DNA from: a virus
Length of the DNA stretch: 22,402 bases
Direction: 5' to 3' (one strand)
Virus record (IMG/VR): IMGVR_UViG_3300017971_000796
Span: 1 to 22,402 of that record
A model generated the notes under the pieces. That model was not told the DNA's origin and made no database searches. It worked only from the letters and a program-made list of their open reading frames with translations. Position 1 is the stretch's first letter. The number at the start of each line of letters is the position of its first letter. Position numbers and translations under genes: made by a program. This document shows positions 3,335 to 22,402 of this stretch, in pieces.

Positions 3335-4552
3335 ATGACTGACTTAAATAAAATTACAGAGAATGCGCATAAAGCAGTCGCTGAGCTGCGTGAAACAGTA
3401 GAATCCAAATTTGCTGACCTTGGCGAAGGCAAAGAAAGAATATCAAAGATCGAGAAGGATCTTGACTCCTATGAGTCTGCAAATCAAAAGCTTGTTAAGC
3501 AGATTCAAGAGCAAAAGGCTGCTATGGAGCAAATGGAAGAAAAGTACAACTTCCTCGAGTCTAACTATGCCTCTATTCCTGCTGCTGGCGTTGATGCTAA
3601 AGCTATTGACGAGCAGCATAAAATGGAAATGAAAGCATTAGAATCATATTTCAAATATGGAAACAAGAGAGACTTTGACTTGCAGCAAAAGTATTTGCGC
3701 ACAGACAGCAACACTAATGGCGGATTCTTAGTTCCGGTTGAGTTTGTTCGTGACATCATCAAAGACATCACCGAGGTTTCTCCTGTTCGTCAAGTGGCAA
3801 TGGTTCGCCAAGCTCAATCTAAAAGCATGGAACAGCCAATTAGAACAGGCTTGTTGACAGCTGGCTGGGTTGGTGAAGGTGATACCGGCACAGAAGCTAA
3901 CAGCACATACGGCAGTCGCATGATTCACGTTAAGAAGATATTCGTGCAAGTGCAAATTACACCAGAAGAATTGCAAGATGCTGCTTTCGACATGGAGCAA
4001 GAAATTCGTAGTGACGTCACTGAGCGTTTTGCTCAAGTTGAAGGCGCAGGATTTACAAAAGGAACTGGCGTTAACCAGCCAATCGGGTTTATGAGCGCTC
4101 CTGATGTTCCTGAAATTAACAGTGGTGTAGCAAATGACATTACGGCTGATAACTTCTATGATTTAGAGGCAAATTTGAAATCAGGATATTTAAGCAACTC
4201 CATCTATGGCTTAAACAGATTCACCATTGGTCGTGTTCGCAGATTAAAGGCAAGTGGTAATGGTGAATACTTATGGAGTCCAGGCAATTTGGCTGCTGGC
4301 GTGCCTAATGCTATTGCTGGCTATCCATATGTTGAGATGCCAGACTTAGACAGCATTGCTGCTAATAACTTCCCGGTGATTTTTGCTGACTTCCGTCGCT
4401 TCTATCAAATTGCTGATAGAATGTCATTAGAAGTTGTTCGTGACGATGTTACAAAAGCACTTGAAGGCAAAATTTTGTTTAACTATTTCTTGCGAGTTGG
4501 TGGCGACGTTCGTCAGCCTGAGGCTGGCGTTAAATTAAAAGTAGCTGTCTAA
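3335..4552 (+). CDS. Major capsid protein, HK97 gp5-like
   Basis: This 405-residue protein forms the icosahedral shell. Residues about 1-110 are a charged, heptad-rich coiled coil typical of the scaffolding delta domain that the preceding protease removes. The mature HK97-fold part starts near residues 122-134 (SNTNGGFLVPVEF). It contains the SPVRQVA, WVGEGDTGTE and VKKIFVQVQITPEEL segments, KGTGVNQPIGFM, and the A-domain/P-loop stretch AGYPYVEMPDLD...VIFADFRRFYQIADR. The ATG follows the protease stop by six bases, and a GGTGA ribosome site overlaps that stop. Arginine codons are mostly CGT/CGC, unlike the AGA/AGG habit of many neighbours, consistent with very high expression. The cleavage position near residue 120 is inferred. 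Confidence 0.95.
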   Translation: MTDLNKITENAHKAVAELRETVESKFADLGEGKERISKIEKDLDSYESANQKLVKQIQEQKAAMEQMEEKYNFLESNYASIPAAGVDAKAIDEQHKMEMKALESYFKYGNKRDFDLQQKYLRTDSNTNGGFLVPVEFVRDIIKDITEVSPVRQVAMVRQAQSKSMEQPIRTGLLTAGWVGEGDTGTEANSTYGSRMIHVKKIFVQVQITPEELQDAAFDMEQEIRSDVTERFAQVEGAGFTKGTGVNQPIGFMSAPDVPEINSGVANDITADNFYDLEANLKSGYLSNSIYGLNRFTIGRVRRLKASGNGEYLWSPGNLAAGVPNAIAGYPYVEMPDLDSIAANNFPVIFADFRRFYQIADRMSLEVVRDDVTKALEGKILFNYFLRVGGDVRQPEAGVKLKVAV

Positions 4553-4598: not shown

Positions 4599-5006
4599 AT
4601 GGCTGACAAAGACATTACAACACGCATTAATGGCACAACTTCATTGCCAATTATAACTATCACCTCAAATGGCACAGCTAATGGCTCGGTAATCGATATG
4701 TTTGGTTATGACGCTATTAACTTTGACTTTTTGAGCGGGAATGCAATTGGTGCTGATGTTACTGTAACAATGGAGCATGATGACGATGCTGGTTTTGCTA
4801 CCGCTGTAGCAGTTCCATCCAAATTCATCATTGGCGAGCTTCCATCATTCCTTATTGCTGGCGCAGAAACCAACACCGTTAAAAGCGTTGGTTATGTTGG
4901 CAAAAAGCGATATGTGCGAGTCAGCATTACTAGCGCAAACTATGCCGCAGATACGCAGATTGCCGGCATTGCAAATCGTGGCGATGCGCGCGTAAACCCT
5001 GTTTAA
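4599..5006 (+). CDS. Probable head decoration / capsid-associated protein
   Basis: This 135-residue protein has a strong ribosome site (GGAG, 8 bases before ATG) and lies directly after the capsid gene, the usual place for a decoration protein. It is predicted all-beta and has no charged tails or membrane segments. Motifs resemble a family of phage structural proteins with the pattern AINFDFLSG, VTVTMEHDDDAGF and SVGYVGKKRYVRVSI, in which a YVGKKRYVR-like strand is the most conserved part. It is expected to sit on the outside of the shell. A rho-independent terminator follows at once, so capsid and decoration genes form a unit that can be expressed in excess. The function is inferred from position and motif; I cannot name a specific characterised homologue. 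Confidence 0.55.
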   Translation: MADKDITTRINGTTSLPIITITSNGTANGSVIDMFGYDAINFDFLSGNAIGADVTVTMEHDDDAGFATAVAVPSKFIIGELPSFLIAGAETNTVKSVGYVGKKRYVRVSITSANYAADTQIAGIANRGDARVNPV

Positions 5007-5054: not shown

Positions 5055-5294
5055 ATGAAAATAAAATTTATCAAAGATTGTGTGTGGTCTTACAGTGACA
5101 GGCTTATTTCTTATAAGAAAGGCGAGCATTACGATGTTGATGATTGCCAGTCAGATGAAATTATCAAGCTTGGGTATGCAGAAGAGCACAAAGAGAATAA
5201 GACCACAAAGACAAAAAAATCATCTGTCGAAAGGAAGATGGATAAGCAGCCAAAGAAAGAGAATAAATCTATTTCTGCAGAAGAAAACAAATAA
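5055..5294 (+). CDS. Small lysine-rich hypothetical protein
   Basis: This 79-residue protein has an AAAGG ribosome site 8 bases before its ATG, which lies just past the terminator. Residues 1-45 look like a small beta fold common in phage head loci (KIKFIKD..., YKKGEHYDVDD, IIKLGYAEE). Residues 46-79 are an almost pure Lys/Glu/Asn/Ser low-complexity tail, probably disordered. Small proteins with the pattern G-x-x-Y-D-V...I-x-x-GYAE often precede connector genes in phage head clusters, but their role is not known to me. An overlapping +1 frame across the same region is a shadow of this gene. Confidence 0.6.
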   Translation: MKIKFIKDCVWSYSDRLISYKKGEHYDVDDCQSDEIIKLGYAEEHKENKTTKTKKSSVERKMDKQPKKENKSISAEENK

Positions 5295-5305: not shown

Positions 5306-5671
5306 ATGACCACAAAAGTAACTGACTTTGTATTAAATATAGCAGATGAAGAGAACACTGTGACAATTTCAGCTGCGGGCAGCATTTCTACCACTATTCA
5401 TACTCGCGGCGCTCCATTGATTGGGATTAGGACGGATGCAAATTTCACCACATCTGATGTTCAGATTATTGAAACTGATGAGACTGGGACTTTATCAAGT
5501 GTGATAAAAAACCCAGATGGAACAGTGCTTACCTTGAACTCAGTTCAGGCAAACAACACTGTTTACCTTTCCGCGCCGTGGACGGCTGCCGCGAAATATC
5601 TAAGAATTCAGTCTGTAACTCCTCAGGCCAGCGAAACAGTATTGACGCTGACTCCGAGGAGCATTTCTTAA
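5306..5671 (+). CDS. Hypothetical capsid-associated beta protein
   Basis: This 121-residue protein has an AAAGG site 8 bases before its ATG. It is rich in Thr, Ser and beta-forming residues, with no helices obvious. The pattern ISTTIHTRGAPLIGIRTDANF, QIIETDETG, NTVYLSAPW and AKYLRIQSVTPQASETVLTLTPR matches the general style of small phage surface proteins placed between capsid and connector genes (GI-t-x-a-x-f ... l-P ... YLRI-S). It may be a second decoration protein or the base on which the long fibre-like protein encoded downstream sits. Its stop overlaps the next ATG by one base. The function is an inference from position only. Confidence 0.5.
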   Translation: MTTKVTDFVLNIADEENTVTISAAGSISTTIHTRGAPLIGIRTDANFTTSDVQIIETDETGTLSSVIKNPDGTVLTLNSVQANNTVYLSAPWTAAAKYLRIQSVTPQASETVLTLTPRSIS

Positions 5672-5793
5672 TGTTTTTTTGGTTTGATGAAGATATTTCA
5701 CCAGGGGTGCCACCCGTCGATCTTGGCATGCTTTTTGATGATGGCGATGAAATGTTTTTTGATGATAACGAAGTCATGGAATATGACGGGTAA
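5671..5793 (+). CDS. Very acidic 40-residue protein
   Basis: ATG at 5671 overlaps the previous stop (TAATG), and a strong GAGGAG ribosome site lies at 5656-5661. The frame is open further upstream to 5578, but only this ATG has a ribosome site, so I choose it. The product carries 13 Asp/Glu in 40 residues and five Phe plus one Trp, with motifs MFFWFDED and MFFDDNEVMEYDG. It contains no Lys or Arg. It is too short for a domain call. The gene ends 12 bases before the long fibre-like gene, and AGAGGT, the ribosome site of that gene, overlaps its stop region. It could be a small capsid peptide or fibre-attachment factor. I do not recognise a family. Confidence 0.55.
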   Translation: MFFWFDEDISPGVPPVDLGMLFDDGDEMFFDDNEVMEYDG

Positions 5794-5805: not shown

Positions 5806-8800
5806 ATGGGAAGAAAGTGGGCTGCACAGCCACAGGCTGGTGTATTATCATCAACAGATGAGTTTTTGGCAATTATTGCAAGCGCGCCATCTGGCGCAAC
5901 AAAAGAGCAAAGGATTCCGGCATCATACATACCAACCTTTATCGGAAAAACAGATTTAGCGGTAGGCTATACACTAGATGGTGGCGTGTCTCAAAAAACA
6001 TTAACAGTTACTGAAAACTCTACAATTGATCAAGATTTGTCATTTTTATCAGGACCGTCTTTTACTGGCCTAACAGTGCGAAGTGGCACAGGGGCTGAAA
6101 ATGTCGTTATTTCAAATGATGACACAAATACAAACTATCTTACGTCAAATGGTTACCATAATTTTACTGGCGGCAATGTAAAAGCAACATGGCTTGATGT
6201 TGGCTCTGGTGGGGCTCTTGACACCACAAAAGGTATTAAAATATTTGAAACAAATCCGCATTATCGAATAGGTTTTGATAATACAGTTGCCAGTGGCGCT
6301 ATCCAATACAATATTGATCTTATAGCAGATACACATTGCCATGCATTCACTGCCGGTGAATTTGGTGGCGTCCAAAACATTTTGGCATGCATTCGTGGTG
6401 ATGGCAGAATGTCTATTAATGACAGTGCTCCAGAGTCAAATCTAGATGTTAATGGTGACGTCAGAATCCAGGATGGTGCAATTCCATCAGATCCAACAAC
6501 TGGTCATAAATTATATTCAAGCGCAGGCGATTTATTTGCTCGTGATAATCTAGGAAACGTGACAAATATTACAAGCCCGCCTGACTTAAGCAAATGGAAT
6601 GTTAGTGCGCCATATATAGAGCCAAAACCAGGGCAGGGTGTCAGTGGATTTAGGATAACAGATCCAACTTTAACGCAAAATTTCACATTTTTTCAGGGGC
6701 CAACAAACTGTACTTACAATACCTCAAATGGCATACATATTTTTAACGCTACCGTAAGGGCTACATCTGTTGATGTCCCATCTGGTGGCAGCCTTGATTC
6801 AACCAAGGGCGTTAATTTTTTTGGTAGCAATCCAAATTATAGAATAGGTCACGATGCAAGTTTTGGTGGTTATGCATCTCTAAGATACAACATTGACTCA
6901 CCTTTAAATACTCATGGCCACGTTTGGTCAGCAGGAATATTGTCAGGATCGCCAACAGTTCTTGCAGTATTGCGCGGCGACGGGTTAATGGCAATAGGGG
7001 ATCAACAACCGCAGTCATGGTTAGACGTAAAATTTGACATTAGGGTTGGAGAAACGACAACTCCTATCACTCCATCTGCTGGCATTAAGGTTTATTCAAA
7101 AACTGACGGCAACTTATATGCATTAAATAGTGCAGGAATAGAAAGCAACCTAACATCAGGGGCAACAGATAGTAAATGGGACAACTCATCACCTGGGGCT
7201 TTGTTCCCTAAAGATGCGCTGGCGGTTGATAGAATATTCATCAAAGATGCTGGTATGGCGCAAGCATTTACTATCCAAAACACTGGTGCAGAAATAAGTT
7301 ACACTAACAGCTCAGGTGGTGGACATAGATTTGGTGGTGGAGATGTGTCTATAGGACTTCAAGCACCAGAATCAAATCTTGATGTTGCGTCAGACATTAG
7401 AGTGGGTGAAATTGTAACACCATCAAATCCAACAGTAGGTCAAAAAATTTACGGAAAAGCAGACGGTAATTTATATACACTTAATGCTGCTGGATTAGAG
7501 ACTAACTTAACTGCAGCTGCTAGTGATAGTAAATGGCAGCAGACAGCAAGCGCGCTGTTTCCAAAAGATCCACTTGGAGTGGATACAATAACATTAAAAA
7601 ATCTTGCTCAAACACAATCTTGGTTTGTTAATAAGACAGACACTAATGCTGAGTATAATAATACTAATGGTATCCATGATTTTCTACAGGGTGTAAAAGC
7701 AACATATCTAGATGCTGGGCATATATCTACACTTACCACAAGCAACGGGATAAATTTGTTTGCTGGAAATAATGACTATAGAATTGGGTTTGATAACCAG
7801 GGTGCAACTGTTAGCTGGATGCGTTTTAATATCGATGTTGCAGCAAGCACGCATAATTTTACCTGGACATCTGGGCCAATCACTTCAGCGCCAAATGTGA
7901 TTGCAAGACTTAGGGGTGATGGAAAGTTTTCTGTCGGCAGCCAAGACCCTGAATCATCGATTGATGTTGCTGAAGATATTAGGGTTGGTGAGATATCAAC
8001 GCCTAGCAATCCAACATCAGGAATAAAGATTTACTCAAAAACTGGAACAGATTTATTTGCTCTTGATACAGCAGGAACTGAGACAAACCTTATAGATGCA
8101 AGCTCAACAAGCAAGTGGGTTTATGCAGGAAATAATATACTCCCCGCTCCTTCTCCTGCCGTTGAGGGGATATCAATACAAGATTTAGCGAAGACTCAAG
8201 CTTTTACAGTCCTTCATAACGGCACTACTGTTATATATACTAATACCTATTCTGGTGGACCTCACTCTTTTGTTGGTGGCCCTGTTCAAGCAGATTGGTA
8301 TTCACTAAGAAATCAGGGAACTTTAAATGCCGGAAAAGGAATTAGCCTTTTTGAGCTAAACAATGACTATAAAATAGGGTTTGACGATAATGGCGGTGGT
8401 AACGGATGGATTCGCTATAACGTTGACACACTAGCAGCAACTCATGGTCATGTATTTACTGGTGGCCCACTTGCATCATCAACCATATTGGCAAGCATAA
8501 ATGGCCTTGGCGATATGAGCGTTTCTAATGACTTATCGGTTGGCGCAGACGCTGCTGTCTCCAACGATTTGACAGTTGGCGCAGACGCTGTTGTAACGAC
8601 ATCTCTAACAGTTGGCGCTCAAGCAAATGAGTCAACTATTGATTCTAGTGGTGATATTAGGCTTGCTGAAATTGCATCGCCATCAAATCCAACTTCTGGC
8701 GTCAAGGTATTTGCAAAGACTGATAATGACGTATACGCACGAGATAGCAATGGGGATGAGATTAATTTATCAAGATGGAATATTACAAATGTAAACACTA

Positions 8801-9087
8801 GTCCATATTTAACTGTTGCCTCTGACAATATTATCTCTGTTGACGCAACGACGGTATCAGTAACTGTTATTATTGATGCTTCTGTCATGCGTCGTCCTGT
8901 TGTTGTTGTTCCAAAAACAATTGGAGCTGGCAAGTCAGTTAATATTGAGCCTGCTGTTGGGCAAACAATAAATGGATCAACCGCTACTAGAGTTATTGCT
9001 GCTCCAGGATCTGAATTTTCAACATATACGATTGTTCCCATAAGCTCTACAGAGATGGCGATATCATCAATAGAGCCAGGCCCATAA
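5806..9087 (+). CDS. Long repeat-built fibre-like protein in the head locus (candidate head fibre)
   Basis: This 1093-residue protein has an AGAGGT ribosome site about 7 bases before its ATG. The N-terminus (STDEFLAI, RIPASYIPTFI at about 16-46) resembles the leader found on many phage fibres. The body alternates two module types. Module A, about 56 residues (PESNLDV...DIRVGE...SNPT-G-K-Y-K...NLY-L...ETNL...SKW), occurs five times, starting near residues 209, 402, 521, 715 and 941. Module B, about 100 residues (TNGIHDF..., LD-S-GIN-F, NYRIGFD, YNID...THGHVFT-G, LRGDG-MSIG), precedes four of them; the third copy is cut to about 30 residues. Three 12-residue repeats lie at 905-940. The C-terminus (about 995-1093) is beta-rich and different. 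There is no signal peptide or membrane segment. It probably forms an elongated trimer. Its place between capsid and connector genes suggests attachment to the head rather than the tail, but this is inference. Confidence 0.65.
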   Translation: MGRKWAAQPQAGVLSSTDEFLAIIASAPSGATKEQRIPASYIPTFIGKTDLAVGYTLDGGVSQKTLTVTENSTIDQDLSFLSGPSFTGLTVRSGTGAENVVISNDDTNTNYLTSNGYHNFTGGNVKATWLDVGSGGALDTTKGIKIFETNPHYRIGFDNTVASGAIQYNIDLIADTHCHAFTAGEFGGVQNILACIRGDGRMSINDSAPESNLDVNGDVRIQDGAIPSDPTTGHKLYSSAGDLFARDNLGNVTNITSPPDLSKWNVSAPYIEPKPGQGVSGFRITDPTLTQNFTFFQGPTNCTYNTSNGIHIFNATVRATSVDVPSGGSLDSTKGVNFFGSNPNYRIGHDASFGGYASLRYNIDSPLNTHGHVWSAGILSGSPTVLAVLRGDGLMAIGDQQPQSWLDVKFDIRVGETTTPITPSAGIKVYSKTDGNLYALNSAGIESNLTSGATDSKWDNSSPGALFPKDALAVDRIFIKDAGMAQAFTIQNTGAEISYTNSSGGGHRFGGGDVSIGLQAPESNLDVASDIRVGEIVTPSNPTVGQKIYGKADGNLYTLNAAGLETNLTAAASDSKWQQTASALFPKDPLGVDTITLKNLAQTQSWFVNKTDTNAEYNNTNGIHDFLQGVKATYLDAGHISTLTTSNGINLFAGNNDYRIGFDNQGATVSWMRFNIDVAASTHNFTWTSGPITSAPNVIARLRGDGKFSVGSQDPESSIDVAEDIRVGEISTPSNPTSGIKIYSKTGTDLFALDTAGTETNLIDASSTSKWVYAGNNILPAPSPAVEGISIQDLAKTQAFTVLHNGTTVIYTNTYSGGPHSFVGGPVQADWYSLRNQGTLNAGKGISLFELNNDYKIGFDDNGGGNGWIRYNVDTLAATHGHVFTGGPLASSTILASINGLGDMSVSNDLSVGADAAVSNDLTVGADAVVTTSLTVGAQANESTIDSSGDIRLAEIASPSNPTSGVKVFAKTDNDVYARDSNGDEINLSRWNITNVNTSPYLTVASDNIISVDATTVSVTVIIDASVMRRPVVVVPKTIGAGKSVNIEPAVGQTINGSTATRVIAAPGSEFSTYTIVPISSTEMAISSIEPGP
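6430..8778 (+). repeat. Five diverged copies of module A in the fibre-like gene
   Basis: Copies lie at about 6430-6597, 7009-7179, 7366-7536, 7948-8118 and 8626-8778. They share amino-acid motifs (P-E-S-N-L-D-V, D-I-R-V-G-E, S-N-P-T-S-G, N-L-Y-A-L, E-T-N-L, S-K-W) but have drifted in DNA sequence, so they are old duplications. Spacing is about 579, 357, 582 and 678 bases. The short interval reflects the deleted module B before copy 3, and the long one contains the 36-base tandem repeat. Confidence 0.75.
8518..8625 (+). repeat. Three tandem 36-base repeats in the fibre-like gene
   Basis: The repeat encodes a 12-residue unit of the form VSNDLTVGADAV. The 16-base core GTTGGCGCAGACGCTG is identical at 8539-8554 and 8575-8590, and a third, diverged copy starts at 8611, exactly 36 bases further on. 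The near identity of the first two copies points to recent duplication. Such units extend a triple-beta shaft by whole turns. Confidence 0.7.
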
Positions 9088-9134: not shown

Positions 9135-9314
9135 ATGCTGGTTAAGTTTGATGATAAATCCCTAAAGATGATAGAAGTTCTCGCGCATTATGCGCTTAAA
9201 GGGGCTGGGATTGATGCGTTGACGCAGGTTAATAATATTTTTGCATTTTTAAATAGTGAGTCTGAAATGGGGCGCCAAGAGGTTGCTCATGGTAATGAAG
9301 AATCAGATGGTTAA
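9135..9314 (+). CDS. Small hypothetical protein, 59 residues
   Basis: A strong ribosome site AAGGAGA precedes the ATG at 9135 by about 7 bases, and the frame ends in TAA at 9312-9314. The product begins MLVKFDDKSLKMIEVLAHYA and continues with a second amphipathic stretch around ALTQVNNIFAFLNSE; its last 17 residues are polar. It is predicted to be two short helices. It lies between the fibre-like gene and the connector gene, where short helical ORFs are common in phages. Function is unknown. A minus-strand frame across its 3' part is a shadow. Confidence 0.65.
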   Translation: MLVKFDDKSLKMIEVLAHYALKGAGIDALTQVNNIFAFLNSESEMGRQEVAHGNEESDG

Positions 9315-9353: not shown

Positions 9354-10037
9354 GTGATATATTCAAACTCAGGGCACTCATCATTTGTTCCTGTTTCTCG
9401 CACCCCTGTGCCAATTAATTATACATATGAGGTTGTTGCTCAGAGAGCTGCATTACCGTTAACATTAAGCGAGGTTAAGGAACAGCTCAATATACCCCTG
9501 TCTTCAACTATAAAAGACTCTTATTTGACATTTCTTATTGAGGCGGTAACTGACTATTTTGAATCTTTTACAAATAGAATTCTAATTAATACAGGATTTC
9601 GCACATACAGGGATAAATTTCCTTGTTGCTCTAACTGTTTCATAATAAGAAAGGCAAAAGTAGATCCTGGATCTGTTTTAATAAACTATCTTAAGAATAG
9701 TGTTTTAACGCCTATTGATCCATTAAAATATTATGTAACTAGCCAAAATTCTTACCCAGGAATATATCTTAATCAAAACCAATCATGGCCAAATGATGTT
9801 GATATAAGAGTCCAGGCAATACAAATTGATTTTACCGCTGGATTTGGCGCAAATGAATCTTCAATACCAGCAAAGATAAAACTTTCACTATTGCAGCATA
9901 TTGCAGCGCTTGATGCCAATAGAGGTGACTGTGATTCTGATGCATGTGCAAATGCATTGCCAAGTGCGGCTAAAAATATATATATGCAGTATAAAGTTGC
10001 AGAAGTAACAGCTTTTAAGAAGTGCAGGGGCTGCTAA
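9354..10037 (+). CDS. Head-tail connector, HK97 gp6 / phage DNA-packaging type
   Basis: This 227-residue protein starts at a GTG with a purine-rich AGGGGGTG ribosome site just upstream; no in-frame ATG exists near the N-terminus. The gp6-like signature is LTLSEVKEQLNIP, a helix-rich DSYLTFLIEAVTDYFESFTNR, then RTYRDKFP and, near the C-terminus, IQIDFTAGFG followed by PAKIKLSLLQHIAALDANR. These proteins form a ring below the portal as the first layer of the neck. It is longer than HK97 gp6 because of an inserted beta region (about 85-150) and a Cys-containing tail (ending CRGC). It overlaps the next ATG by one base. Family assignment is by motif recognition. Confidence 0.82.
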   Translation: MIYSNSGHSSFVPVSRTPVPINYTYEVVAQRAALPLTLSEVKEQLNIPLSSTIKDSYLTFLIEAVTDYFESFTNRILINTGFRTYRDKFPCCSNCFIIRKAKVDPGSVLINYLKNSVLTPIDPLKYYVTSQNSYPGIYLNQNQSWPNDVDIRVQAIQIDFTAGFGANESSIPAKIKLSLLQHIAALDANRGDCDSDACANALPSAAKNIYMQYKVAEVTAFKKCRGC

Positions 10038-10426: not shown

Positions 10427-10875
10427 TGGCTATTAAAATAACGATAGATGCTCAAAGCAGGAAAGCAATTGCATCACTTGGGTTTATATCAAAGCGTGCT
10501 AAAGAAGGCATTCGTGCTGCATTTTATGATATTGGTCGTGATTTAAGAAAAGATATTAGAAACGATATTCTATTCGCTCCAAAATCCGGAAGAACATACC
10601 TTGTCAGGTTGAAAGGAAGGATTAAACGGCACAAATCCTCTGCTCCTGGAGAAACTGCGGCGAATCTTACTGGGAAATATTTCAATAGTATAGATTACAA
10701 TGTTAAAGGCAGCAATCAATTAGAGTTTGGCAGCAGGGTCATTCACGGAAAATTTCTGGAAGAGGGAACTAGAAGAATGAAGCCTAGACCAGGTCTTGGC
10801 AACAGTATTAGAAAAAAAGAGTCAGAGATAGAGCAATATCTGGCGGCGGCCATTAAGAGGAATTTAAGAAAATGA
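10426..10875 (+). CDS. HK97 gp10-like neck / tail-completion protein
   Basis: This 149-residue protein starts at an ATG overlapping the previous stop (TAATG) with no separate ribosome site, so it is probably translated by coupling. Its family signature is strong: RAAFYDIGRDLRKDIR near the N-terminus, the SSAPGETAANLTGKYFNSIDY segment in the middle, then FGSRVIHGKFLEEGTRRMKPRPGL toward the C-terminus. Members connect the neck to the tail or help tail completion. It shares an ATGA overlap with the following terminator gene. Confidence 0.85.
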   Translation: MAIKITIDAQSRKAIASLGFISKRAKEGIRAAFYDIGRDLRKDIRNDILFAPKSGRTYLVRLKGRIKRHKSSAPGETAANLTGKYFNSIDYNVKGSNQLEFGSRVIHGKFLEEGTRRMKPRPGLGNSIRKKESEIEQYLAAAIKRNLRK

Positions 10876-11249
10876 AAGCTGATGATATTGTCAGACAATT
10901 GTTCTCGGTGGTGCCAAAGATTACAGGCATGTTTAGCGATGAGTACCAAATAACATCACTGGTTCGCTCTGGGTCAACTGTCACCGCAACAACATCTGCA
11001 AACCATCTAATGTCGACTGGCGATTATGTAAATATAGTTAATGCGCTTACGCCGGTAACAATATCATCTCTAACACGAGAAATACAAATTACATCAATAA
11101 TTAGGGATGGTCAGATTGCCACAGTAACTACCGATGGAAATCATAATTTACCTGATGGAACAAATTTAAGCATTGCAGGTGCTTTGCAGCCAGAGTACAA
11201 CATTACGACAGATATTAATGTAATCTCAAAAAACACATTTACCACTTAG
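10872..11249 (+). CDS. Tail terminator protein, N-terminal part (frame broken at about 11243)
   Basis: ATG overlaps the previous TGA (ATGA), with AAGAGG 11 bases upstream. It encodes 125 residues before a TAG at 11247-11249. Residues 1-24 (MKADDIVRQLF...) look like the first helix of a tail terminator. The rest is a pair of beta modules (QITSLVRSGSTVTATT..., QITSIIRDGQIATVTTDGNHNL, GALQPEYN). The second module ends abruptly at NTFT, while the missing remainder, VNGLPASPATGT, is encoded at once in the -1 frame. Together the two frames give a protein of about 436 residues. In frame, codons TCA AAA AAC at 11226-11234 contain the canonical slippery heptamer A AAA AAC. Alternatively one T has been lost between 11243 and 11244. 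Confidence 0.7.
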   Translation: MKADDIVRQLFSVVPKITGMFSDEYQITSLVRSGSTVTATTSANHLMSTGDYVNIVNALTPVTISSLTREIQITSIIRDGQIATVTTDGNHNLPDGTNLSIAGALQPEYNITTDINVISKNTFTT

Positions 11250-11287
11250 TCAACGGATTGCCAGCCAGTCCAGCAACAGGAACAATA
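11085..11287 (+). repeat. Beta module shared with baseplate J (copy in the tail terminator)
   Basis: This copy spans the frameshift. The module pattern is ITS-x-x-R-x-G-x-x-ATVTT...HNL-x-x-G-x-x-x-x-IAGA-x-x-PEYN...TFTY...P-x-SPATGTI. Further, more diverged or partial copies lie at about 10947-11063, 11300-11509 and 11516-11617 in the same gene, and a clear one lies in the baseplate J gene at 20672-20887. Confidence 0.7.
11228..11271 (+). other. Frameshift region in the tail terminator gene
   Basis: The in-phase heptamer A AAA AAC (11228-11234) would allow -1 slippage. A small hairpin follows at 11255-11271, with a 6-bp stem including one G-U pair and loop CCAGC, but it is 20 bases downstream, further than usual. 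No Shine-Dalgarno-like stimulator is seen upstream. Adding a single T after 11243 restores TFTYLVNGLPASP, which matches sister modules. Confidence 0.55.
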
Positions 11288-12193
11288 TTGCTATCACTAA
11301 CAAGTCTTGCAATTGCTGAGACCGTAAGTAACCATGATTTGACCTTATCTAAAAGAATCGATGGCAAGCAATTGACGGTTGATATCGATGGGGCTGACCA
11401 GCCTGAGTACAATGGTGTTAGACCACTTATAGCGGTTCCAAATAGAAGAAAATTTATATATGAAATAACTGGCAATCCTTCTTCTCCTGGCACAGGGGCA
11501 ATATTCTTACGTACTGGCAGCAACACAAGAGACTATAATGGTAGATTCGAGGCAACCGTAACGTCGCCAACAACGTTTACCTATCAAATAACATCAATGC
11601 CAGAGTCGCCAGCACAAGGAGCCCCGTTGGCGCGTGTCAGAAACAGAATATCAAGAAGTGAAAGACTATCGAGGGCGGCTGACTCATATACAAGACAGCC
11701 ACCAGGAGATTATTGGGCATATGTGGTTCTTGAGAATCCCGCACCAAGCCAAAGCAGGGCAACAGTAACTGATGCAACAGCAAGGATAAGCATAGGAACT
11801 GCATTTAGGCAGCCTAGAATTGAGCAGTTTTCAGTATATGTGTTTGCTCCAACTACAGATGAAATAGCGGCAGGGTTGGTGCGTGATACAATGCCAGAGG
11901 TTGCATCTATACTTTTCAAGTCACTGCTTGGCGTCAAGCTTCCGACAGCATTTTCTAATCATAGGCATGATGGCGTGATATGGTCTGGGGAGGCAAATGT
12001 AACAGATAATCCTGCTTACTATATTCATCAGTTTGTGTTTGAAACTACCGTTGATATTACAGCTTGTGATATCATAGAGAATGAAGATAGTGTAGCATTT
12101 AGAGATATAGAAATTGATTATATGTCTGAGTTTAAATCTTCAGACAACATAATCATGCAAAGTGACATAAACTTGGATGAAGACCCACTATGA
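11258..12193 (+). CDS. Tail terminator protein, C-terminal part (-1 frame relative to N-terminal part)
   Basis: The frame is open upstream of the nominal TTG at 11258, which has no ribosome site, so this is not an independent gene but the continuation of 10872-11249. About 311 residues are visible. Two further beta modules come first (ending EYNGVRPLIAVPNRRKFIYEI and TFTYQITSMPESPAQG). The terminator body follows: RLSRAADSYTRQPPGDYWAYVVLENP, FRQPRIEQFSVYVFAPTT and PAYYIHQFVFETTVDI. This is the Mu gp37-like family found before sheath genes; it caps the tail tube and sheath after polymerisation. The last bases overlap the next ATG (ATGA). If the virus is active, full-length protein must be made by frameshifting, or the break is a sequencing error or recent decay. 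Confidence 0.7.
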   Translation: MPASPATGTILLSLTSLAIAETVSNHDLTLSKRIDGKQLTVDIDGADQPEYNGVRPLIAVPNRRKFIYEITGNPSSPGTGAIFLRTGSNTRDYNGRFEATVTSPTTFTYQITSMPESPAQGAPLARVRNRISRSERLSRAADSYTRQPPGDYWAYVVLENPAPSQSRATVTDATARISIGTAFRQPRIEQFSVYVFAPTTDEIAAGLVRDTMPEVASILFKSLLGVKLPTAFSNHRHDGVIWSGEANVTDNPAYYIHQFVFETTVDITACDIIENEDSVAFRDIEIDYMSEFKSSDNIIMQSDINLDEDPL

Positions 12194-12423
12194 ACGTAAA
12201 AATAAAGTTAAATTATGACTTGGCTGGCTACAAAGCAGGTGATGCATTTTTTGTTGAGTGCGACAAGAATAATATTCCATTGGATATCTATTGGCGCAAA
12301 AGGCTAAAAGATTCAAGTATCGATAAATGCGTTGAGCTCGTTTTAAATGATTCAGAAAAATCTAATGATCTACATGAGCAAAAAAACGTGAATCCATCAA
12401 AAAAAAATAAAGGTGAAAAATAA
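12190..12423 (+). CDS. Small protein before the sheath, DUF2635 / Mu gp38-like
   Basis: This 77-residue protein begins in an ATGA overlap with the terminator gene and ends overlapping the sheath start (TAATG). Its middle carries the pattern IPLDIYWRKRLKDSSIDKCVEL, close to the W-R-R-R-L-x-D motif of the DUF2635/gp38-like small proteins that sit immediately upstream of Mu-like sheath genes. The last 25 residues are a Lys/Asn-rich polar tail, which also carries the AAAGGTG ribosome site for the sheath. Function in that family is not established. Context supports a tail-assembly role. Confidence 0.65.
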   Translation: MNVKIKLNYDLAGYKAGDAFFVECDKNNIPLDIYWRKRLKDSSIDKCVELVLNDSEKSNDLHEQKNVNPSKKNKGEK

Positions 12424-13976
12424 TGACAATTTCATTTCCTGGAATTACAGCCAATATTGTTGGATCGAACACAATCCAGAACAACCAGCCTCAGCGAGTG
12501 TTATTGGTTGGTCAAAAATCCGGTGCTGGAACCGCCCCAGCAGGTGAGCTTGTTGAAAATATTGGCAACAACGGCGAGCATAACGCCTTATTCGGTGAAA
12601 ATTCAATGCTTGCCAATATGGTTAATGCATTTAAGGTTGATGGCTCAAATACTGTAACTCGCTTAGATGCTATCCCTCTTGATGATGACGGTGGCGCGAC
12701 ACAGGCAACTTCAACACTAACATTTGCTGGCACGCCAACTGCAACTGGCACATTTACATTGTATGTTGGATCTAAAAAATTCGCATATACTGTCAATGTG
12801 ACGACTTCAGATACTCCAACATCTGTCGCTACATCAATGGCCGCATTGATTAACGCGGATTCTAAAGTGCAGGTTACCGCCGGTAGTGCCGCAGGTGTTG
12901 TTACTTTAACTGCTGTTAATGGTGGGCTTGAGGGAAACTTTATTGGTGTTAGAGCCGATGGCGAAGTTGCTGGTATGACTCAGACATTAACCGCGATGGC
13001 TGGTGGCGCAACTAACCCAACTTTAACCGGTGTTTTTGATCCTATTGATGGCATTAGGTACCAAACAATTGTTTGGCCTTCATCATATGATAGAGATGTA
13101 GTTAATACTTTATTAGAAAGCAGGTTCAATGTAATAAATAACATCCTTGATGGCATTGCAGTGCAAATTGTGCCAGAAACATTCGCTACATTTAAAGCTA
13201 CTGTTACAGCGCTTAACTCAAAAAGCTTAGTTTTAGGCATTAACCCGCCTGTAGTTTCTGCGCCTGATAATAGATTTGATCATATGGTTTTTGAAGTACC
13301 AAATATGATTGCTTCACAAGTCGCAGCAAAACGATCGATTCGCTTAACTGATGGCGCAAATATTGCGGATGTGGTAGTTAGTGGCGCATCTGCTGATACT
13401 ATCGGCGGGATTGAGCTATCAAGCTTACCATATGCTAACACTCCATTTCCCGCGTTGCCTATAATTGAGGCTGCTGACTTGCTGTCAAGGGCTGAAATTA
13501 AAGAACTTAATGATGCTGGTGGGTTTGTGTTGTCAAACAACATTGCTGGAAACACCTTGGTTTTAGGTCAGCTTGTCACAACTTACAAAACCAATGCCGC
13601 TGGCAATGCAGATATTACATTCAAATTTGCCAACTACGTTGATACTGCTGTCGCTGCGCGTGAATTTATCTTCAACAACAGTCAAGCTCGGTTTAGGCAA
13701 TCTCGCTTAACTAATGGAGAGCTTACCGAGTTCAGAAGTATTGCTAACGAAGCAAGTATTGCTGCATTCTTAGATGCGCAATATCAGCTTCTTGAAGACA
13801 GAATGCTTGTGGTTAAAGGAGACCAAGCGTTAAGATTTTTCAAGGCGAATAGAAATGTTACTATTGACTTGGGTCTTGGTAAGGCGTCTATCAATGCAAA
13901 GCTTAGGATTCTAACGCAATTGAGAGAGCTGACATTTAACTTCGAAATCGTCTTCGACGAAGACAACACATTATAA
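12423..13976 (+). CDS. Contractile tail sheath protein, Mu gpL-like
   Basis: This 517-residue protein polymerises around the tail tube and contracts on infection. The N-terminus (SFPGITANIVGSNTIQNNQPQ, then RVLLVGQK) and the C-terminus (RILTQLRELTFNFEIVFDE) form the interlocking arms typical of sheaths. A beta insertion domain covers about residues 90-200 (TFAGTPTATGTFTLYVG..., NGGLEGNFIGVRADGE). The conserved core includes GIRYQTIVWPSSYD, GGIELSSLPYANTPFPALP and FIFNNSQARFRQSRL. It is slightly longer than Mu gpL. A good ribosome site (AAAGGTG) sits in the preceding gene. Identification is firm from these motifs and the tube gene that follows. Confidence 0.92.
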   Translation: MTISFPGITANIVGSNTIQNNQPQRVLLVGQKSGAGTAPAGELVENIGNNGEHNALFGENSMLANMVNAFKVDGSNTVTRLDAIPLDDDGGATQATSTLTFAGTPTATGTFTLYVGSKKFAYTVNVTTSDTPTSVATSMAALINADSKVQVTAGSAAGVVTLTAVNGGLEGNFIGVRADGEVAGMTQTLTAMAGGATNPTLTGVFDPIDGIRYQTIVWPSSYDRDVVNTLLESRFNVINNILDGIAVQIVPETFATFKATVTALNSKSLVLGINPPVVSAPDNRFDHMVFEVPNMIASQVAAKRSIRLTDGANIADVVVSGASADTIGGIELSSLPYANTPFPALPIIEAADLLSRAEIKELNDAGGFVLSNNIAGNTLVLGQLVTTYKTNAAGNADITFKFANYVDTAVAAREFIFNNSQARFRQSRLTNGELTEFRSIANEASIAAFLDAQYQLLEDRMLVVKGDQALRFFKANRNVTIDLGLGKASINAKLRILTQLRELTFNFEIVFDEDNTL

Positions 13977-19820: not shown

Positions 19821-20288
19821 ATGGCTAGTGAAAGTAATATTGTAGATTTTGATTTAACGGCAAATGAATTTGGCCTGTATGATATTGCGTTGGACTCAGA
19901 CGGCGACATATCAAGCGTTCAATCATTTGACACAGCAATATTGATGTCATTATTTGAGGAAAAGCGTGCTGACTCTAGCGAGGTTGCCATAACCCAAAAC
20001 AGACGTGGGTACTGGGGAAATGAATTTTATCAAGATGTTGCCGATCGAGAGCAGGGATCAAAGATATGGCTTTATGAGCAAGCAAGACTAAATCAAGACA
20101 CAATTAATGGCATTGACGATGCTACTAACGATTGTCTGTTATGGCTTGTTGAGCAACAATTTATAAAGTCGATCGACATTAATGTTAATAGTCAGCGTGG
20201 GGTTGTTGTTGGAAATGTATCACTCGTAAGATTTAACTCTCAAACAGAATCAAAATCGTTTATTCTTTGGGAAAACACAGGGAAATAA
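19821..20288 (+). CDS. Baseplate wedge protein, Mu gp46 / gp25-like
   Basis: This 155-residue protein follows the spike after two bases. The family signature is DIALDSDGDISSVQSFDTAILMSLFEEKRAD near the N-terminus, then NRRGYWGNEF, GSKIWLYEQARLNQDT and CLLWLVEQ. In Mu-like phages gp46 belongs to the gp25-like wedge or sheath-initiator group. Its end overlaps the possible early start of the J gene, but the stop lies just before the preferred ATG of the J gene at 20291. Confidence 0.88.
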   Translation: MASESNIVDFDLTANEFGLYDIALDSDGDISSVQSFDTAILMSLFEEKRADSSEVAITQNRRGYWGNEFYQDVADREQGSKIWLYEQARLNQDTINGIDDATNDCLLWLVEQQFIKSIDINVNSQRGVVVGNVSLVRFNSQTESKSFILWENTGK

Positions 20289-20290
20289 TT

Positions 20291-21601
20291 ATGCCTCTTG
20301 ATATTCCAACAAATAGAAAAGAAGTTATCGACAGATCGAAAACTGATGTAAAAAATGAGCTTCCAGGGTCTAACCCGTTCCTACAAAACTCATTTGTTGG
20401 CTCAATTATTACAGCAGCAGCAGGCAGAAACTTCGATTTTTATATATTTTTTAGTCAGTCGGTTGATAACCTATTTCCTGACACAGCTACAGGTGATTTT
20501 GCTCAAAGGTGGGGAAATTACGTTGGGGTTAACCTGCTTCCTGCCACGCAGTCAAGTGGCTTGATAACAATGAGGGCAAGCTCAACGACTAATGTGCCCA
20601 TTGGAACTGTTTTGCAATCATCCTCCGGCCTAACATTTACTACTCAGTCAGCAGTGACGGTACAGAACACTATATATTCCTTGTCTTCATTAACAAGAGT
20701 CGGATCCACAGTAACGGCAACCACTACTACTGATCACAATCTTGCAAGTGGCGTTATTGTTACTATTGCAGGAGCAGTTGAGACTGAATACAATGTTTCA
20801 GCGCCAATTATTGTAAATTCATCAACAGAGTTTACTTATGAGATAGATACAACGCCAACAAGTCCTGCAACTGGCACCATAACCGCATCATCGATAATCG
20901 GTTCAGTAAATGTAGTCTCTGACGGATTTGGCGCAGCCAATAATATCAGCACTGGTGACTCATTATCATTAGTAACAGGTATTGCTGGAATTATCGATCC
21001 TGCATTCGTGCAGATTGGTGGTTTGACTGGTGGAGCTGACATTGAGAGCGATGAGGATTACCGTGAAAGATATTTGTTTAGATGGCAAAATCCAACCCCA
21101 TGTTTTAATGTTAAAGATATTGAGCAGACAGCGAAGCTAGTCGATGGCGTGACTAGAGTATATGTTCAACCAATAACGCCGGCTGTTGGTCAGGTATCTA
21201 TTTACTTTTTGCGCGATAACGATCCTGGTGGCCCAATACCAACGCCAGGACAAGTAACGGATGTAAAGAACAAGCTTTTAACAATTGTTAATGCAACGAC
21301 AAATCCAGATGATGTTATTGTATCAGCACCAACACCGGTTATTGTTAACTTTGCATTCACAGCAATCACCCCAAATACAACTGCAATGAAAGAAGCGGTA
21401 ACAGCTAATCTTCAACAGTTTTTTAGGGAGGGCACAGCAGTTGGTGAGGATGTGTTGGAGGATGCTTATAAATGCGCAATATTTCAAACTGTTGATATCT
21501 CTGGCAATAGGATAGAGTCTTTTACTCTTTCTTCGCCAATTGGTAATATAGCTGTAGGATCAAACGAAGTTGCAATTTTAGGTACGGTTACATATCCATG
21601 A
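20291..21601 (+). CDS. Baseplate J-like protein, Mu gp47-like
   Basis: I choose ATG at 20291 (AGGG in the preceding stretch, MPLDIPTNR as the normal family start) over the ATG at 20267 inside the previous gene. This gives 436 residues. The protein is a wedge component. Family motifs are LIxxAAA-like SIITAAAGRNFDF, DTATGDFAQRWGN, GADIESDEDYRERYLFRWQNP, and late VDISGNRIESFTL. An extra beta module (about residues 128-199) interrupts the family and is related to modules in the tail terminator. The C-terminus overlaps the next ATG (ATGA). Confidence 0.9.
   Translation: MPLDIPTNRKEVIDRSKTDVKNELPGSNPFLQNSFVGSIITAAAGRNFDFYIFFSQSVDNLFPDTATGDFAQRWGNYVGVNLLPATQSSGLITMRASSTTNVPIGTVLQSSSGLTFTTQSAVTVQNTIYSLSSLTRVGSTVTATTTTDHNLASGVIVTIAGAVETEYNVSAPIIVNSSTEFTYEIDTTPTSPATGTITASSIIGSVNVVSDGFGAANNISTGDSLSLVTGIAGIIDPAFVQIGGLTGGADIESDEDYRERYLFRWQNPTPCFNVKDIEQTAKLVDGVTRVYVQPITPAVGQVSIYFLRDNDPGGPIPTPGQVTDVKNKLLTIVNATTNPDDVIVSAPTPVIVNFAFTAITPNTTAMKEAVTANLQQFFREGTAVGEDVLEDAYKCAIFQTVDISGNRIESFTLSSPIGNIAVGSNEVAILGTVTYP
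20672..20887 (+). repeat. Beta module shared with the tail terminator (copy in baseplate J)
   Basis: Encodes SLTRVGSTVTATTTTDHNL, IAGAVETEYN, STEFTYEI and SPATGTITA, the same order of motifs as at 11085-11287. The two copies differ at DNA level but clearly align at protein level. Similar about 70-residue modules recur in many phage virion proteins and probably form a small surface beta domain. Confidence 0.7.
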
Positions 21602-22164
21602 CGACTATCATAGATAGAACATTGACAGAGGAAACAAATGCATTTGCGAATTATTTGCCAAATGGAAGGATTTTTGCCGCAAAGAACAAGGAAGATGCAA
21701 AGCTTAGACAGCTTATAACTGGTATTGCTACTGAAAACCAACGTGTTGGGGCTTTAATTAATCAGCTTCTTCGTGAGCATGATATCAATAATACTACTGT
21801 ATTGATTGATGAGTGGGAAAGGGCTGTAGGAATTCCTGATGATTGCTTTCAAGAAACGACATCATTACCTATTGAGCAACGAAGAAGGCAAGTCATTGGC
21901 AAGCTCTTTATGCGCGTAGCATGGACTAGAGATGATTATCTTGCGCTGGCTGGTATTATATGGCCTGGGATGCCAATAGATATATTTTATCTACCTGGCG
22001 AGTTTTTTACTGCGAGAATGAGATTGCCAATGTCATTATGTGATGCCGTGTTTCCATTGCCATTCCCTTTGCCTTTTGGTGGGTGTCCAAATGTTCAGCA
22101 GGTGTGTGTATTTAATAAAATAAAGCCTGCCAACAGCAAAATAATATACATTTTTGATTTATAG
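21598..22164 (+). CDS. Baseplate protein, Mu gp48 / YmfQ-like (DUF2313)
   Basis: This 188-residue protein starts in an ATGA overlap with baseplate J. The family pattern is NYLPNGRIFAAK..., LLREHDINNTTVLIDEWERAVGIPDDC and LPIEQRRRQVIGKLFMR. The C-terminal third is unusual, with a LPFPLPFGGCP run and two nearby cysteines. Members usually connect the baseplate to the tail fibres, which agrees with the fibre-like gene that follows. Confidence 0.85.
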   Translation: MTTIIDRTLTEETNAFANYLPNGRIFAAKNKEDAKLRQLITGIATENQRVGALINQLLREHDINNTTVLIDEWERAVGIPDDCFQETTSLPIEQRRRQVIGKLFMRVAWTRDDYLALAGIIWPGMPIDIFYLPGEFFTARMRLPMSLCDAVFPLPFPLPFGGCPNVQQVCVFNKIKPANSKIIYIFDL

Positions 22165-22172
22165 GTGAGAAG

Positions 22173-22402
22173 ATGGAACCAATTCCAAATAAAGTAAATT
22201 TTGTTGATTTCCTGGATGCTCCAACAGAATTTAATCCATGGGTTACAGATGTTCAAGCATGGATAACAAGCTCAGGGCAGACTGTCGGTGGGAATAATGT
22301 TCAGTTCGCCAGATCTGCATCAATTTATGCTGGCCAATCTACCTATTATATTGATAGTGGCACAGTTAACAACTTTGTTTTAACATCTCCTGGCACCATT
22401 GA
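22173..22402 (+). CDS. Probable tail fibre or fibre-network protein (3' end outside window)
   Basis: ATG at 22173 has an AGGTGA ribosome site four bases upstream and the frame stays open to the window end (76 residues visible). The sequence reads MEPIPNKVNFVDFLDAPTEF, then later ASIYAGQSTYYIDSGTVNNF. The segment with YYIDSGTVN-F-L resembles repeat starts seen in phage fibre proteins. Position immediately after the gp48-like gene is the classic place for the tail fibre gene. Too little is visible to say more. Confidence 0.6.
   Translation, partial: MEPIPNKVNFVDFLDAPTEFNPWVTDVQAWITSSGQTVGGNNVQFARSASIYAGQSTYYIDSGTVNNFVLTSPGTI

Follow-up and report, generated by a model that had tools for sequence, protein, structure and literature searches.

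The window, by which we mean the whole 22,402-nucleotide stretch of DNA analysed here, corresponds to a whole IMG/VR contig (22.4 kb) from an uncultured, contractile-tailed phage, and it carries among its head genes a 1093-residue modular protein, P0001, that is a candidate capsid-attached adsorption fibre standing on the predicted jelly-roll protein g121, a reading for which we find the case evenly balanced. A place on the head appears the most likely one because a separate tail-fibre gene lies in the tail module and because large fibre-, lectin- or virion-type proteins are encoded between g121 and the gp6-type connector in three other lineages; a large fibre protein among head genes, beside a jelly-roll protein, suggests a phage that probably bears extra binding arms on its head. 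More tentatively, we propose that these genes belong to a previously unrecognised cassette, running from the major capsid protein (MCP) through decoration, g79, g121 base, (short repeat peptide) and exchangeable fibre to gp6, in a set of uncultured phages that includes contractile ones, and whose lineages may exchange fibres, lectin-like proteins or other large binding proteins on one shared capsid base. A literature search found no description of an exchangeable slot of this kind.

Pfam and PHROG matches bear out the neighbourhood that the original prediction had assigned to P0001, between the decoration-like genes and the gp6-like connector (Table 1). From left to right, the head part of the window comprises a portal (cut), MuF, a Peptidase_S78 protease, the HK97 MCP, dec135, g79, g121, the 1093-aa ORF, a 59-aa ORF, the gp6-type connector and a gp10-type protein, and the tail part comprises sheath, tube, tape measure, DNA_circ_N hub, hub, spike, GP46-like wedge, baseplate J and gp48-like genes. 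Two further IMG/VR contigs overlap the window at 99.97-99.98% identity, one of them extending 3.6-3.9 kb beyond its right end, where the Collar-domain fibre continues and is followed by a 363-aa protein with a tail-fibre-assembly match. The Collar fibre (292 aa) directly follows the gp48-like gene, and P0001 does lie well away from the tail-fibre position, as predicted. Relatives of dec135 include Mycobacterium prophage proteins annotated as 'capsid decoration protein', and a dec135 homologue follows the MCP in most relatives of this phage. The sheath shares 31% identity over 183 aa with that of phage Milano, a distant kinship.

Table 1. Features of the window that bear on the placement of the fibre gene
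Feature	Coordinates	Strand	Evidence
HK97-fold major capsid protein (MCP)	3335..4552	+	PF05065 (Phage_capsid) E 9.7e-58, phrog_10
dec135, 135-aa probable capsid decoration protein	4599..5006	+	phrog_5707 E 8.5e-17
g79, small protein of the head locus with a basic tail; conserved partner gene	5055..5294	+	phrog_2616 E 3e-8; homologues after dec135 in relatives
g121, predicted jelly-roll, candidate capsid base	5306..5671	+	family by profile comparison E 1.1e-8; AlphaFold; Foldseek
p40, possible 40-aa acidic/hydrophobic repeat peptide	5671..5793	+	frame only, putative translation
P0001, 1093-aa modular fibre	5806..9087	+	ORF; anchor 1-71, five A+B units 72-988, C-terminal domain 989-1093
59-aa protein encoded between P0001 and gp6	9135..9314	+	ORF; no PHROG match
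gp6-like head-tail connector, downstream border of slot	9354..10037	+	PF05135 E 2.3e-6, phrog_442
Contractile tail sheath	12423..13976	+	phrog_165 E 1.3e-54
gp48-like baseplate gene	21598..22164		
Start of Collar-domain tail fibre	22173..22402	+	292 aa, complete at L006:3668-4546 (contig IMGVR_UViG_3300017963_000776); PF07484 E 1.7e-18

Two observations concern the tail genes. At position 11243 a T found in both other contigs is missing from the window, and a g311-like gene with a weak tail-terminator match (10872-12193; its relatives measure 354-365 aa) is thereby broken into two ORFs; the gap is probably an assembly error or a strain-specific mutation. Separately, the phrog_9998 beta-domain family recurs in several tail and baseplate proteins (10872-11249, 11258-12193 and 20267-21601 in the window; L006:4558-5649).

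The fibre ORF is a real gene of exactly the predicted length: a frame this long has a chance expectation of about 1e-30 in the window, a Shine-Dalgarno-like AAGAGGT lies shortly upstream of its ATG, its spacing to the neighbouring head genes is operon-like, and it is intact in all three contigs, with no indel. The alternation of A and B modules is likewise confirmed, as five tandem units of ~195 aa, each an A part followed by a B part of ~56 aa (residues 72-261, 262-455, 456-574, 575-768 and 769-988, the third lacking the middle ~75 residues). These units are 39-48% identical to the second one, are also visible as repeats in the DNA, and are distinct from the N-terminal and C-terminal regions that flank them. 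The composition is fibre-like (rich in G, S, T, A and N, with three cysteines). The description of the protein as beta-rich stands in so far as the predicted module structure contains strands only, in a poor model of low confidence (pLDDT 52); a fold search with this model was dropped, its quality being too low to search with.

No sequence relative of P0001 outside the same virus was found in a phage collection (tblastn), in IMG/VR or in the contigs of 84,980 prokaryote genomes, the latter two scans being pattern-based and detecting close relatives only. A scan with module B likewise returned the same virus only, and no close homologue, tail fibre or other, came to light. The protein has no Pfam match up to E 1, the head-fibre domain of the phi29 type included, no match among PDB sequences, one marginal match in PHROGs, and no NCBIfam match up to E 0.1, including the GTA_spike_fiber domain NF048003, which the RcapMu homologue does match. 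Short fibre-repeat stretches align with slot proteins of two other lineages, a 535-aa protein of locus L012 (E 1.3e-4, 30 columns) and a 512-aa repetitive protein of locus L243 (E 2.9e-3, 29 columns), while shuffled controls gave at least 0.04 for the first profile set and at least 0.09 overall for these two targets. The L243 protein contains VGIGTNSPSSKLHVDGDIRG, close to VSIGLQAPESNLDVASDIRVG of the window fibre. These sequence matches are short and weak.

Profile comparison joined g121 to homologues in other loci, and an AlphaFold model built with ten family members (pLDDT 80.7) predicts an all-beta jelly roll. Foldseek with this model ranks discoidin/CBM32-like domains best; at rank 34, with 33 chains scoring better, stands chain 8qpg_TD (114 residues; probability 0.98, E 1.5e-2, TM 0.46-0.48) of the HFTV1 turret, which we take to be the base of the turret, given a length close to the roughly 115 aa of the extended gp30 frame. 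Very similar folds (TM 0.8) occur in uncharacterised phage proteins of a viral structure library. We had expected a homologue of the spike base of RcGTA, and hhalign comparison of the g121 family with the RcapNL homologue of that base did not bear this out, showing no relation (probability 0.9%); nor did g121 and its relatives match the Rcc01079 base family NF048002 in NCBIfam. Comparison of g121 with the HFTV1 turret base gave no sequence relation either (hhalign E 0.039, probability 1.3%), and g121 shares none with dec135. As the sequence comparisons are negative, we place g121 in neither base family. The jelly roll is a common fold, and a role as capsid base for the fibre is what the model and the gene order suggest; g121 may instead be a plain decoration protein, because it lies without a fibre directly before gp6 in six of ten clusters.

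Between g121 and the fibre lies the possible peptide p40, whose 40-codon frame overlaps the g121 stop as TAATG, has a GAGGAG motif ahead of it, and is in frame with P0001, ending one stop and four codons upstream. Locus L097 has a counterpart at the same place and in frame with its own fibre, a 42-codon frame (2256-2384) with FLLLESGG repeats; no such frame is present in L012 or L243. The N-terminus of the RcGTA fibre bears a hydrophobic repeat that inserts into the pentameric base (PMC7296036), a parallel to p40 that is suggestive only. The p40 frame would be a putative gene, whose product is perhaps a linker.

Searches with MCP, sheath, dec135 and g121 gathered about 260 loci, and in the 86 non-redundant ones with dec135 and gp6 resolved, mostly small genes alone separate the two. 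Homologues of g121 are followed either by gp6 itself or by a block of larger proteins with gp6 at its far end. Such a block is present in four of the ten g121 sequence clusters (the window, L012, L097 and L243); in the other six, gp6 directly follows g121 with no fibre. Among non-redundant loci, large ORFs occupy the slot in four of seven with g121 and in seven of 79 without it (Fisher p 0.004), an association noticed post hoc, in small numbers, and diluted to the four of ten clusters by a later g121 scan, which brought mainly one fibre-less clade and whose added clusters were classed by distance to gp6 only. The L012 block encodes a 426-aa 'virion structural' protein (phrog_1645), the 535-aa protein, which matches tail-fibre and 'head decoration' PHROGs, and one of 877 aa. 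That of L097 encodes a fibre-like protein of 299 aa, which matches a tail-fibre PHROG, and one of 475 aa that strongly matches the virion-structural phrog_10356 and contains a Laminin_G_3 stretch (E 1.6e-5, below the Pfam cut-off); that of L243 holds the 512-aa protein with repeats.

Large slot ORFs without g121 are of mixed kinds. In a contractile phage, a gene for a sulfotransferase-like protein of 295 aa, identified by eye, has come to lie between the homologues of the decoration gene and g79 (L101:6041-6925). At L220:4725-6368, a protein of 548 aa that resembles a pectate lyase and a tailspike is encoded between the decoration gene and gp6; its Pfam match is below the threshold, and its end matches a tail-fibre PHROG. 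At L064:8469-9650 and L154:5933-6841 the head slot encodes proteins with numerous tandem repeats of the 'LDATVAKDATVAKETTLSALAG' type, possibly coiled-coil fibres of another type. The slot of RHph_X2_25 holds homing endonucleases; these and the sulfotransferase-like gene of L101 show that the slot can take unrelated cargo. Ten MCP relatives (L018, L021, L026, L028, L029, L034, L047, L053, L079 and L091) have a single giant ORF of 1700-2500 aa about 1.3-1.9 kb after the MCP. Giant ORFs of this kind in marine relatives, of 1000-2500 aa, were considered as the same system and left out of the support because their gene order differs and because the one scanned, that of L021, has tail-fibre-family matches; the L021 protein starts collagen-like and has no gp6 within reach.

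The pectate-lyase-like protein in this same slot of L220 is one reason to take seriously the main rival account, if an unlikely one, that P0001 is a baseplate tail fibre or tailspike, a receptor-binding protein whose gene has moved to the head locus. The Collar fibre of the window phage resembles a short tail fibre and so leaves room for a long one, and there are precedents: the largest tailspike of Milano, gp124 (587 aa), is on the baseplate (PMC10811340), and in its sister phage 7-7-1 a 587-aa putative tail fibre, likely the gp124 counterpart, is encoded at 49601-51364, where the small terminase is its neighbour and the structural genes come later. Since these tailspike genes lie away from the tail module, gene position is evidence and not proof. 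Set against them, the tail module of the window phage already encodes a fibre and a protein matching tail-fibre-assembly proteins, no sequence is shared between P0001 and the Collar fibre (BLASTP E 0.49), P0001 is encoded in the head locus instead of after the gp48-like gene, and fibre-type genes recur beside g121 in the head loci of several lineages.

The position of the P0001 gene just upstream of the connector genes would also suit a whisker, a fibre of the neck or collar attached near portal and connector. We consider this improbable, as neither Pfam nor PHROGs gave a fibritin-like match and the order of g121 and fibre suits base-appendage pairs better. It is equally improbable that P0001 is an accessory virion or secreted protein (a surface-binding moron, for example) and not a structural fibre, with g121 an unrelated decoration protein: the slot is variable, often empty, and in L101 holds non-structural cargo, but P0001 has repetitive beta-modules with fibre-type motifs, no obvious N-terminal signal peptide (by eye) and operon-like placement in the head genes.

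A capsid-attached fibre system stays the most likely reading; the small proteins just upstream, which the original prediction had joined to it, are probably part of it, and the gene order and predicted g121 fold resemble base-plus-fibre appendages, while the capsid location itself is a candidate one. We envisage that (i) g121 would sit on capsomers of the HK97 shell; (ii) it would hold the N-terminal region of the fibre, possibly via p40; (iii) the five repeated beta units would form the fibre shaft; (iv) the C-terminal domain would touch a cell-surface polymer such as a glycan, a flagellum or mucus-like material; and (v) the outcome would be an initial, reversible contact that precedes engagement of the baseplate and its separate Collar-domain fibre, in the manner of RcGTA spikes (PMC7296036, PMC10218006), HFTV1 turrets (PMC12494034) and the capsid fibres of 7-7-1 (PMC12796354).

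If the cassette is what we propose, head-borne binding of hosts or surfaces would vary independently of the tail fibres. Micrographs often show capsid fibres to which no gene has been assigned, the fibre protein of 7-7-1 not being known and the filament gene of phiCbK being a candidate only. A signature in which a jelly-roll g121 adjoins a variable fibre, both encoded after the decoration gene and before the connector, would make such appendages recognisable in metagenomic phages. It would also mean that receptor-binding potential extends beyond the tail module, the usual basis of host-range prediction.

To speak of an undescribed head appendage, as had been done, is too strong, since head spikes, turrets, filaments and fibres are already known; the fibre sequence is new, and the base family is an uncharacterised one. 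By sequence, neither P0001 nor g121 is homologous to a known head-spike family. The head fibre of phi29, gp8.5, belongs to a Pfam head-fibre family and likewise stands on an HK97-type head, but it is small and helical, and P0001 lacks a Pfam match.

Agrobacterium phage 7-7-1 makes first contact through flexible capsid fibres (PMC12796354). It shares with the window phage a contractile tail, an HK97 capsid and a 135-aa decoration protein after the MCP, the sheath kinship being distant and tested against the sister phage Milano; dec135 has no detectable homology to the Milano/7-7-1 decoration protein, and the 7-7-1 head interval holds no gene like the 1093-aa one. The candidate head filament protein of phiCbK, gp76 (2799 aa; PMC3556154), is glycine-rich, has a lectin domain, would form a single filament and gave no tblastn match to P0001 in the phage collection; it resembles P0001 as a very large virion-type protein, encoded nearer to head than to tail genes, grown by tandem duplication and assigned by a similar argument.

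In the capsid turret of HFTV1, the base TBP gp30 is followed by the head THP gp31 (PMC12494034), again a small base gene and then an appendage gene, and the predicted g121 fold may resemble that of the turret chain, though at a TM of 0.46-0.48 and behind 33 other chains. The differences are the lack of g121 sequence similarity, a THP that is a deacetylase-like trimer and not a modular fibre, and turret genes that lie after the connector genes. The head spike of RcGTA consists of a jelly-roll base pentamer, GhsA/Rcc01079, and a fibre, GhsB/Rcc01080 (Bardy et al. 2020, PMC7296036), and is proposed to make first contact with surface polysaccharide (PMC7296036, PMC10218006). P0001 is far longer than the RcGTA fibre (1093 aa against about 325) and has no Leu-Gly repeat at its N-terminus, its gene and that of g121 lie inside the head cluster, and the two proteins show no similarity to the RcGTA base or to the NCBIfam spike families; yet both systems place a small (here predicted) jelly-roll gene directly upstream of a larger beta-rich fibre gene, in particles with an HK97-type head and separate tail fibres.
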